From Terriglobales bacterium (lineage in GTDB: Bacteria > Acidobacteriota > Terriglobia > Terriglobales > Acidobacteriaceae), in the NCBI GenBank assembly GCA_035651995.1, contig DASRER010000047.1:1-61405 (forward strand): a DNA stretch of 61,405 nt, in the 5' to 3' direction. Below are positions 21,738 through 24,879 of the stretch, piece after piece. The position numbers and the translations under genes are program-made. Below the pieces are notes generated by a model that worked only from the letters and a program-made list of their open reading frames with translations, did no database searches and was not told the origin of the DNA. The number at the start of each line of letters is the position of its first letter. Positions within the stretch are counted from its first letter, which is position 1.

Positions 21738-22331
21738 TTATTGTTTCAACTTCTGCCGCTCACAAGCCGCCACGATCTTCGTTGGGTCCACGGCCTCGCG
21801 ATCCACCGATTCCTCGATGACCCGACCGTCCTTGCCGATCAGGAACGTCGCGCGGCGCGCCGACTTCATCTTGACGCCTTTGACGTCGCGTTCTTCCAAT
21901 AGGCCGTACTCGTCGATCGTCTTGCCCGACATGTCGCTGAGCAGCGGGAAGCTGACGCCGTTCTGCAGGCCGAAGTTGTAGTTGGCGAATGGGCTGTCAA
22001 TGCTTACACCCAGCACCTGGGTGTCGGCGGCCTCCAGCTTCTGAATGTTCTGCTGGAAGGCCCTCATCTCGGCCGTTCAACCGCCGGTGAAGGCGAAGAC
22101 GTAGAACGCCAGCGCGACGTTCTTCTTGCCCTTGAAGTCGTGCAGCGAAACCGGCTTCACGCCCTGCCCGTCGAATGCGATGAGGGTAAAGTCGGGCGCC
22201 ACGTCGCCGACCTTGATCTTGGGAGGAGGCGGCGGCGCTTTGGCGGCGTCCTTCTTCTCCTGTGCTGTGACCAGCGGAAGCAGTGACCCCGCCAGGAGCC
22301 ACACTGCCGCCTTGCAGGCGAATCTACGCAT
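21738..22331 (-). CDS. secreted AhpC/TSA peroxiredoxin with in-frame UGA at the peroxidatic cysteine (probable selenoprotein, Sec85)
   Basis: From ATG 22331 (AGAGG upstream) the frame encodes a signal peptide (to about residue 26, AQEKK), then VGDVAPDFTL, LHDFKGKKNVALAFYVFAFTGG, a TGA at 22079-22077, and without any frame change TAEMRAFQQNIQKLEA, TQVLGVSIDSPFANYNFG, FPLLSDMSG and ATFLIGKDGRV, to a stop at 21738. The TGA falls exactly where peroxiredoxins have the peroxidatic Cys (TxxC), at residue 85 of 197. The usual Pro seven residues before it is Val. A hairpin meeting the bacterial SECIS rules lies just after the TGA. I infer selenocysteine and reduction of peroxides in the periplasm. A Cys-to-stop mutation or sequencing error is the alternative. 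Confidence 0.82.
22029..22062 (-). promoter_or_regulatory. candidate bacterial SECIS element
   Basis: Starting 15 nt after the TGA, the minus strand has arms GGCCTTCCAGC (22062-22052) and GCTGGAGGCC (22038-22029). They pair as 10 bp with a single bulged U, closing a 13-nt loop AGAACATTCAGAA. The loop begins 25 nt after the UGA and has a G among its first two bases, as in published bacterial SECIS models (loop 16-37 nt downstream, SelB binding). A bulged U is also a feature of the E. coli fdhF element. Confidence 0.72.
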
Positions 22332-22433: not shown

Positions 22434-23090
22434 ATGCCCAGGTCAAAACCAACCGCAAGCTCCGGCACCGCCGACTACCCTGCCGGCCGTGGTGGCGAAA
22501 AGTACCAGCGGATTCTTGACGCCGCCATCGCCGTCATCGCCGAAAACGGTTTCTTTCAGTCGCGCGTCTCTGAGATCGCCGAACGCGCCGGCGTCGCCGA
22601 CGGCACCATCTACCTTTACTTCCGCAACAAGGAACAGGTCCTCATGGCGGCCATTGACGCCGCCTTCGGCGCCTTCCTGGAGCGCGCCCGCCGGGAACTC
22701 GAGCCTGCCAGCCCGCCGTCTGAAAAGCTGCGCCGCCTGGCCCGCCTGCACCTCGGCGCCCTCGGCTCGAACCGCGCCATGGCCATCGTCTTCCAGACCG
22801 AGCTGCGGCACAGCGCCAAGTTTCTGGCACAATTCTCCCAGCACAGCCTGGTGACCTACTTCGATATGATCCGCCAGGTCGTCCGTGAAGGACAGCAGCA
22901 GGGCGTCTTCCGCCGCGAGATCTCCGACAAGATCGCGGCCAACTGCTTCTTCGGCGCGCTCGACGAAATGGTCACCTCGTGGATGCTGAGCGATCGCGAC
23001 TATCCCCTGGTCGGCGCCGCCGATGCGGTGGTCGACGTCATCGTGGCGGGACTGGAGACTCGGCCGGCAAATGGACCCTCGCAGCGTTAA
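22434..23090 (+). CDS. TetR family transcriptional regulator (FadR-like)
   Basis: The 218-residue product has an N-terminal helix-turn-helix (about 25-70: ILDAAIAVIAENGFFQSRVSEIAERAGVADGTIYLYF) and a C-terminal ligand domain of the type that binds acyl-CoA (VFQTELRHS, then YFDMIRQVVREGQQQGVF). It overlaps the acyl-CoA ligase gene by 20 bp, so the two are co-transcribed. The regulator probably represses its own operon until a long-chain acyl-CoA binds. The 102 bp upstream, shared with the divergent peroxiredoxin gene, should hold its operator; I could not identify a convincing palindrome. Confidence 0.9.
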   Translation: MPRSKPTASSGTADYPAGRGGEKYQRILDAAIAVIAENGFFQSRVSEIAERAGVADGTIYLYFRNKEQVLMAAIDAAFGAFLERARRELEPASPPSEKLRRLARLHLGALGSNRAMAIVFQTELRHSAKFLAQFSQHSLVTYFDMIRQVVREGQQQGVFRREISDKIAANCFFGALDEMVTSWMLSDRDYPLVGAADAVVDVIVAGLETRPANGPSQR

Positions 23091-24879
23091 GACGATCAAC
23101 GACCTCTTCGCGCTGATCGTTGAGCGCAATCACCCCCGCGCCGTCCTCAACAATCCCGGCCTGCTCCAGCCAAGCTGGACGCCGCTCTCCTCCGCCGACA
23201 TCTACTCCGACGTGCTCAGTGTCGCGCGAACATTGCAAAGCTGGGGCATCAACCGAGGCGAGCGGGTCTCCATCCTCGGCGAAAACCGCTACGAGTGGGC
23301 GGTCGCCGACTTCGCCTGCCTGGCGCTCGGCATCGTTGACGTGCCCATCTACCCCACGCTGACCGCCGACCAGACCGCCTTCATCCTCAACGACGCCGGC
23401 GTGCGCGCCATCTTCGTTTCCACAGCCGAGCAGTTGCAGAAGATTCTCTCTATCCGCGCTCAGACCGGACTGGAGAAAATCATCCTCATGGATCGCCCGT
23501 CGGCCGCGCTGCCCGCAGGCATCATCGCCATGCACGACCTGATTGGCCGCGGCCCGGTCGCCCGTGACGCGCAATTCGATGCAGCCACCCGCGCTGTCGC
23601 ACCCGAAGACCTCGCCACCATCATCTACACCTCCGGCACCACGGGGACGCCCAAGGGCGTGATGCTCACGCACGGAAATCTGGCGTCGAATCTGGTGCAC
23701 TCGCTCGAAGTGTTCGGCATTGACCAGCGCGACCTGGCGCTCTCATTCCTGCCGCTCTCGCACATCACGGCGCGCCACACCGATTACGCCATGTACCAGT
23801 ACGGCGTCACCGTCGCCTACTGCACCGACATTCATCGGATCGCCGAGGTGATGCTCCAGCTGCGCCCCACGTTCTTCGTCTCCGTGCCGCGCCTCTACGA
23901 GAAAGTGCGCATCGAGGTTGAGCGCAAGACCTCCTCGGGCCTCAAGCGCAAGTTCTATGAGTGGGCATTGGGCGTCGGCCGGAAGCACGCCGCGGAAGTT
24001 ATGAGCGGGCGTCGCCCAACTTCGCTTTCCTGGAAGCTCGCCCATGCCCTCGTCTTCTCCAAGATCGAGGCCGGTTTCGGCGGCCGCGGACGCATCTTTA
24101 TTTCCGGCGGCGCTCCGCTCGGCCGCGAACTCGCCGAGTGGTATGCCTTCGTCGGCATTCGGGTCTGCGAGGGTTACGGCCTGACGGAAACCTCTCCCGT
24201 CGTCGCGCTCAACAACCCCAGGGCCTATAAGCTGGGCACCGTGGGCAAGCCACTGCCGAACGTGGAGTGTCGCATCGCCGAGGACGGCGAACTGCTCGTC
24301 CGCGGCCCCAGCGTCTTTCACGGATACTGGAAAAAGCCCGAGGAAACCCGCGCCGCCTTCGAAGACGGCTGGTTCCACACCGGCGACATGGGCTCCATCG
24401 ACGCCGACGGCTTCCTCAGCATCACCGACCGCAAGAAAGACCTCATCAAGACGTCCGGCGGAAAGTTCGTCGCGCCGCAGCCCCTCGAGAACACCCTCAA
24501 GCTCAATCCCATGGTGGCGTATGCCGCCGTCATCGGCGACAAGCGCAGGTTCTGCTCGGTCATCATCGCCCCGAATTTTCCAGCGCTGGAAGAATGGGCC
24601 CACGCACAGGGCATCACGTTCTCCTCGCGCGAAGAGCTGGTGCAGGACGCAAAGACGCGCGCCTTCTACGAAAATCTGGTCGACGCCCTCAACCTGAACC
24701 TGGCGCAGTACGAAAAGCTCAAACGCGTGCTGCTCGTCCCCGACGAGTTCAGCATCGCCACCGGCGAGCTCACGCCCACGCTGAAACTCAAGCGCCGCGT
24801 GCTCGAAGACCGCTACCGCACGCTCATCGACGAGATGTACGCCACTGCCGTCGCGCCTGCTGCGGTGCCCTCGATATAG
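23071..24879 (+). CDS. long-chain fatty-acid-CoA ligase (AMP-forming)
   Basis: The 602-residue product has the ANL-superfamily motifs: P-loop YTSGTTGTPKGVM, the FACS linker region GYGLTETSPVV, the ATP-binding GWFHTGDMG, and DRKKDLIKTSGGKFVAPQPLEN before the mobile C-terminal domain. It activates long-chain fatty acids with ATP and CoA, feeding beta-oxidation or lipid synthesis. The ATG at 23071 gives a product with the expected N-terminus and overlaps the TetR gene by 20 bp. It is followed 9 bp later by thiG. Confidence 0.94.
   Translation: MDPRSVKTINDLFALIVERNHPRAVLNNPGLLQPSWTPLSSADIYSDVLSVARTLQSWGINRGERVSILGENRYEWAVADFACLALGIVDVPIYPTLTADQTAFILNDAGVRAIFVSTAEQLQKILSIRAQTGLEKIILMDRPSAALPAGIIAMHDLIGRGPVARDAQFDAATRAVAPEDLATIIYTSGTTGTPKGVMLTHGNLASNLVHSLEVFGIDQRDLALSFLPLSHITARHTDYAMYQYGVTVAYCTDIHRIAEVMLQLRPTFFVSVPRLYEKVRIEVERKTSSGLKRKFYEWALGVGRKHAAEVMSGRRPTSLSWKLAHALVFSKIEAGFGGRGRIFISGGAPLGRELAEWYAFVGIRVCEGYGLTETSPVVALNNPRAYKLGTVGKPLPNVECRIAEDGELLVRGPSVFHGYWKKPEETRAAFEDGWFHTGDMGSIDADGFLSITDRKKDLIKTSGGKFVAPQPLENTLKLNPMVAYAAVIGDKRRFCSVIIAPNFPALEEWAHAQGITFSSREELVQDAKTRAFYENLVDALNLNLAQYEKLKRVLLVPDEFSIATGELTPTLKLKRRVLEDRYRTLIDEMYATAVAPAAVPSI

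Follow-up and report, generated by a model that had tools for sequence, protein, structure and literature searches.

The peroxiredoxin gene on the minus strand of the window (the whole stretch analysed, 61,405 nucleotides of the Terriglobales contig DASRER010000047.1, assembly GCA_035651995.1) most likely encodes an exported antioxidant enzyme that reads an in-frame TGA as selenocysteine (Sec). We consider the complete account, an exported selenoperoxiredoxin with SECIS-directed Sec85, resolution by Cys190 and a reductant in the cell envelope, to be highly probable. At the level of sequence, the analysis established the reading frame, the position of the TGA within it, the Sec machinery, the conservation of the TGA, a hairpin that covaries in relatives and one conserved Cys.

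The coding frame runs from 22331 to 21738 and comprises the following features.
21738..22331, minus strand: predicted exported Sec peroxiredoxin, full frame, 197 amino acids with TGA as Sec
22331-22329, minus strand: start ATG, from the frame translation
22077..22079, minus strand: in-frame TGA, putative Sec85 at the peroxidatic position, TGA in 110/110 orthologous sequences
22077..22088, minus strand: TxxU active-site motif, T82-G-G-U85, aligned to the Cys of solved peroxiredoxins
21740-21738, minus strand: stop TAA, from the frame translation

An AGAGGT purine stretch precedes the start codon. The frame translation shows the TGA at 22079-22077 as the single interruption, exactly where an earlier note on this DNA had placed the only break in a continuous AhpC/TSA frame. 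With Cys put at residue 85, the Pfam AhpC-TSA match (2e-30, residues 41-172) spans the TGA and, at 105.7 bits, exceeds the gathering score of 26 (PF00578). The motif around Sec85 reads AFTGGU and is of the TxxU type. In phmmer alignments residue 85 falls on the Cys of 2cx3 (AFSPVC) and 2ywn (AFTQVC), which bears out the assignment of the TGA to the peroxidatic Cys of a TxxC motif; the third solved match, 3hjp, has Ser at this position. Homology was also said to resume in frame behind the TGA. Compared with the window protein, 62 relatives are on average 69% identical over residues 39-84 and 58% over residues 86-188, so the segment behind the TGA is conserved.

As had been anticipated for gene callers, the standard code yields two pieces, 22367-22077 and 22067-21738. 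Cutting the frame at the TGA in this way is a systematic annotation trap. The two frames would also fit a pseudogene whose halves are remnants left by a nonsense mutation; however, the TGA occupies the same codon in 110/110 orthologues from many families, the frames continue to the C-terminal stop and the sequence behind the TGA is conserved, which leaves this explanation extremely improbable. Alternatively, the TGA could end a short protein, with a second one beginning four codons later at the ATG at 22067, which is present in the window. However, several orthologues have Leu or Val in place of this Met, and such a split protein would have no peroxidatic residue and would leave the hairpin and the association with the Sec trait described below unexplained; we assign it hardly any probability. 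Since the TGA recurs in 110 different sequences, from as many genomes, an assembly base error at this codon is so very unlikely as to be practically negligible.

The comparison with relatives favours a TGA read as Sec. Among 200 genomes of the order, 62 gave best matches (E <=1.8e-29) that each carry exactly one TGA; the weaker matches listed had mostly 37-45% identity and few stops, and the five that were fetched all show TGC at the site. In the phylum set of 396 genomes, 54 had a match at E 1e-25, one of them two, and all 55 matches again contain one TGA. Both sets, which have six genomes in common, were combined and repeats removed to give the 110 different orthologous sequences. Codon 85 is TGA in all 110 and TGC or TGT in none, which answers the earlier question whether close relatives carry a Cys codon here, and the match tables contain no other stop inside the frame. 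The orthologue frames terminate in TAG (47), TGA (35) or TAA (28). In a tree of 117 sequences the 110 form one clade (support 100/98), apart from five Cys and two Sec paralogues; this outgroup comprises few sequences, and the tree program gave a warning about long branches.

We further ran a diversity-picked family profile with 19 members on the same 396 phylum genomes. The best 61 matches (60 genomes, 255-167 bits) all have one TGA and all extend to at least profile position 150, beyond the C-terminal Cys at position 148. Below these, 32 further matches were listed (<=155 bits, limit E 1e-38); they end at position 133-143, before this Cys, and 22 of them are without a stop while ten have a TGA. 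Because only the best 61 listed matches, all with TGA, reach that residue, the C-terminal-Cys group is Sec-only in the sample. Six of the 60 carrier genomes lie outside the 54, and their sequences are not among the 110. The genome searches scored the best eight or nine candidates per genome and listed matches down to a limit, so that a weakly matching Cys orthologue could escape.

A scan limited to close relatives returned one relative. No orthologue was seen in a plasmid search of 145 records, where none reached 80% coverage and the listed places had 34-41% identity. Three sequences of another family (L017, L092 and L093, family f27) nest beside the window gene L018 within the window's family (100/91), which suggests a transfer between families.

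The earlier note had named selA, selB, selC and selD as genes to look for, and all four were found above their cut-offs in the source genome (3.66 Mb in 48 contigs, completeness 99.35%): selA scored 552 bits, selB 353, selD 367 and tRNA-Sec 69.5. Judged by these matches, the Sec-decoding trait of bacteria is present. In 14 named control genomes the cut-offs were passed by tRNA-Sec in five, selB in two, selA in one and selD in two, so the tRNA-Sec cut-off is the least specific of the four. ARAGORN identified the best tRNA-Sec locus as tRNA-SeC with the anticodon TCA, and two further matches above the cut-off (49.1 and 47 bits) as tRNA-Ser. About 2.3 kb separate selA from selD on contig 25. The latter gene (L049, G000:C25:28861-29790) itself has one in-frame TGA (AAGUASK), which marks it as a Sec-type SelD. 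Rfam at gathering scores and ARAGORN gave no match on the 61-kb window; selC sits on another contig.

The occurrence of the peroxiredoxin follows the Sec trait. Among the 62 carriers in the order, 59 have a selB match (E 1e-60) and 57 a tRNA-Sec match (E 1e-11); 62/62 have one or the other and 54 have both. By comparison, a selB or selC match was found in 28 of the 138 non-carriers (Fisher p 4e-30 vs 62/62 carriers), and none of the 110 genomes of the order without selB and selC match carries the gene. Throughout the phylum selB was matched in 53/54 carriers vs 203/342 other genomes (p 3e-10); these p-values ignore kinship among genomes and are a guide only. All six extra phylum carriers from the profile search have a selB match. 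The phylum carrier without a selB match at the limit used (G437) is a genome that is 72% complete. Three carriers in the order likewise lack selB at the limit. In G167, parts resembling selB occur on two contigs. In G118 and G126, which both have tRNA-Sec, the best selB match falls in a frame of only 398 and 405 amino acids, the size of EF-Tu; either an assembly gap or a divergent SelB may explain their status. In the order, selB is present in all five carriers for which no tRNA-Sec match passed the limit.

A different resolution of the TGA would be that a suppressor-type tRNA or an altered code makes it specify an ordinary residue, Cys or some other. Unusual tRNAs are known in bacteria, and the wider family does have Cys at this position. 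Against this, the best eight loci for the tRNA-Sec model give, according to ARAGORN, a single TCA anticodon, that of tRNA-SeC, together with an ordinary GCA tRNA-Cys. Moreover, UGA still terminates two of eight nearby genes in the window and 35/110 orthologues, and the gene tracks selB and selC. We therefore regard ordinary-residue decoding as very unlikely and Sec insertion as the preferred reading.

As an observation on the trait itself, 26 of the 200 genomes of the order have selB and tRNA-Sec and no such peroxiredoxin. Since this protein is absent there, other selenoproteins must maintain the Sec trait in these genomes.

A stem is predicted behind the TGA.
22029..22062 (borders approximate), minus strand: hairpin region, candidate bacterial SECIS, beginning 17 nt after the T of the TGA

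Folding was analysed in 48-nt segments of 63 sequences with 60 codon-matched shuffles per sequence. The mean z after the TGA was -0.95 at 0, -1.40 at +15 (the lowest value), -0.88 at +30 and -0.75 at +45; among 18 other segments a single one, at -60 on the upstream side, was comparable, with a mean z of -1.02 in 62 sequences. A compact hairpin was recognised in 45/110 sequences, selected for having Tyr at codon +7 together with GCT, TCT or GGT at codon +9; its apex is GGC (30), GUC (13) or GGG (2). In this set the third base of the Tyr codon, a synonymous position, faces the middle base of codon +10. The 34 sequences with U in the Tyr codon all have A opposite, and the 11 with C all have G, giving a pair in 45/45 without a mismatch. 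The Tyr third base is free for the protein, while exchange of the codon +10 base costs an amino-acid change. The choice at codon +9 dropped 11 Tyr-bearing sequences, two pairing U-A and nine with C opposite A (L038, L055, L070, L071, L116, L117, L122, L130 and L135). All Tyr-bearing sequences together number 56 and comprise 36 U-A, 11 C-G and nine C opposite A, the last being unpaired in this register; pairing thus occurs in 47/56 (Fisher p 1e-6). The other 54 of the 110 sequences have no Tyr at codon +7.

Parsimony places two U-A/C-G changes on the tree (L110/L114; L082 with family f49), which was built with the codon +10 residue included. The upper stem, at bases 20 and 35, is mixed: 27/45 sequences pair G-C, C-G or A-U at 20-35, and the other 18 compact hairpins pair solely in the neighbouring register 20-34. 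The window's own sequence, with Phe at codon +7 and a longer stem, lies outside the compact set. For 54 sequences near the window, a set that includes L017 and leaves out L073, L082 and seven f2 sequences, the RNAalifold consensus was weak and most changes affected one side of the stem, so the hairpin near the window rests on the codon-matched energies. We read these patterns as signs of selection on an RNA stem at the place expected for a bacterial SECIS; the case is better in the distant relatives than in the family of the window.

The N-terminus points to export.
22263..22331, minus strand: predicted signal peptide, residues 1-23, cleavage between VTA and QE placed by eye, hydrophobic run in orthologues

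We applied a simple rule, a run of at least nine residues free of D, E, K, R, H, N, Q and P upstream of the domain. Such a run is found in 109/109 orthologues with at least 15 residues there, the remaining one of the 110 being truncated by a contig end and left out. Control stretches of equal length after the TGA satisfied the rule in 1/109 and 3/109. The start codons of the orthologues being presumed ones, the description of the protein as secreted stands as a prediction under this rule.

Two residues behind Sec85 are candidates for a role in catalysis.
21762..21764, minus strand: C190, sole Cys after Sec85, candidate resolving residue, in 63/63 aligned sequences
21852..21854, minus strand: R160, invariant Arg, candidate catalytic Arg, in 19/19 diversity-chosen rows

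In 110/110 sequences a single Cys lies behind the Sec, at a distance of 97-106 residues; each thus has a conserved potential second redox residue near the C-terminus, as in 2-Cys-like peroxiredoxins. R160 presumably acts as the catalytic Arg of peroxiredoxins. The Pro of the PxxxTxxC motif, replaced in the window by Val78 (22098-22100), is kept in 5/19 rows and is Val, Ile or Ser in 14/19, window included. An AlphaFold2 model from two sequences (window and L017) had a mean pLDDT of 41.5, too low for the U85-C190 distance.

For the way in which the enzyme might be made and might work, we infer Sec insertion, export, peroxidase activity, a U85-C190 bridge, a reductant and a substrate. SelA and SelD would make Sec-tRNA, and the UGA at codon 85 would be read as Sec by tRNA-Sec(UCA) and SelB, directed by the downstream hairpin as a bacterial SECIS with putative SelB binding. 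After export, Sec85 would attack the peroxide and thereby turn into a selenenic acid; Cys190, the sole Cys near the C-terminus, in the same or a neighbouring subunit, may then resolve this acid to a selenenylsulfide. A thioredoxin-like reductase of the cell envelope could then reduce this bond.

Two genes lie divergently upstream.
22434..23090, plus strand: TetR-like regulator, divergent neighbour, named by eye; upstream-divergent homologue in 8/26 loci, window included
23023..24879, plus strand: long-chain acyl-CoA synthetase-like, divergent neighbour, named by eye; upstream-divergent homologue in 24/26 loci, window included

The 26 loci are those of at least 2,500 bases among 30 search loci of the window's family; among the other 24 long loci, an acyl-CoA synthetase homologue occurs in one, placed elsewhere. 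As a weak lead, this neighbour could hint at lipid peroxides.

The source genome has ten AhpC/TSA matches. Four contain a TGA, namely the window gene and three others with one active-site TGA each.
G000:C20:244221-244619 (L083/L142): AhpC/TSA with NTPGU
G000:C35:38810-39211 (L143): AhpC/TSA with WTPVU
G000:C8:34384-34782 (L150): AhpC/TSA with WUPNC
All four are candidate selenoproteins.

For many thiol-oxidoreductase-type selenoproteins of bacteria, close homologues with Cys exist. The present group, by its sequences, is apparently a new branch that is phylum-wide in the Acidobacteriota, predicted to be exported, Sec-only in the sample and fitted with a fixed C-terminal Cys. Whether it is a Sec-only exported lineage across the Acidobacteriota with no fallback to Cys, and hence with a strict selenium need that leaves the gene missing wherever the Sec machinery is missing, is a proposal to which we give about an even chance. 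If it is true, the Sec85/Cys190 pair would provide a natural experiment on why selenium is indispensable to some enzymes. The branch offers a clean system for what Sec does that Cys cannot, and it lets one ask whether the cell envelope needs a secreted selenoenzyme. Among the open-access papers listed in the searches, no acidobacterial or Sec-only exported peroxiredoxin was found. Four acidobacterial selenoproteins in three families (PMC1794560) and three selenoproteins in Occallatibacter riparius (PMC12013277) have been described. An early survey also links Sec peroxiredoxin to low oxygen and counts five Cys-to-Sec events in the family (PMC1794560).

A Cys-to-Sec exchange at the peroxidatic site, to which the earlier note had appealed, is indeed on record in bacteria: four sources treat TxxU peroxiredoxin as an established selenoprotein family (PMC13188914, PMC9312934, PMC1794560, PMC5029168), with 91 Sec peroxiredoxins in 78 organisms in one of them (PMC5029168). 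The type protein is that of Eubacterium acidaminophilum (Sohling 2001, as cited in PMC13188914). Like this family, the window gene is AhpC/TSA by Pfam and has its putative Sec in a peroxidatic TxxU (PMC13188914). What sets it apart from this known kind is the predicted export and the lone conserved Cys behind the Sec; in the sampled phylum, no Cys member with the C-terminal Cys was listed. The window gene also departs from the longer motif PxxxTxxU in the wording of PMC13188914, as Val78 replaces the Pro; because a table in that source defines the family by TxxU, we claim membership for the TxxU kind only. The curated family NCBIfam PrxU (NF040737, equivalog) does not include the window gene, which scores 68.8 bits vs a cut-off of 270.

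Among the nearest solved structures is Rv2238c (1xvw, 1xxu, 5id2; E 3e-40 by profile), with the similar core FFPLAFTGIC. We take this protein to be AhpE, a 1-Cys enzyme that uses Cys, and its match stops short of the C-terminal Cys of the window family. The best sequence matches are the Bcp-type proteins 2ywn, 3hjp and 2cx3, presumably of crenarchaeal origin, of which 2ywn is the nearest solved structure by profile (E 2e-41). In 2cx3 and 2ywn the peroxidatic Cys is aligned with Sec85, so they have Cys where the window has the putative Sec, and the Bcp-type matches also end before the C-terminal Cys. A second kind of AhpC/TSA selenoprotein is the UxxC peroxiredoxin-like thiol:disulfide oxidoreductase, as given in PMC9312934 and PMC13188914, for which the source genome has the candidate WUPNC. 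The window gene differs from it in having TxxU and no Cys near the Sec.
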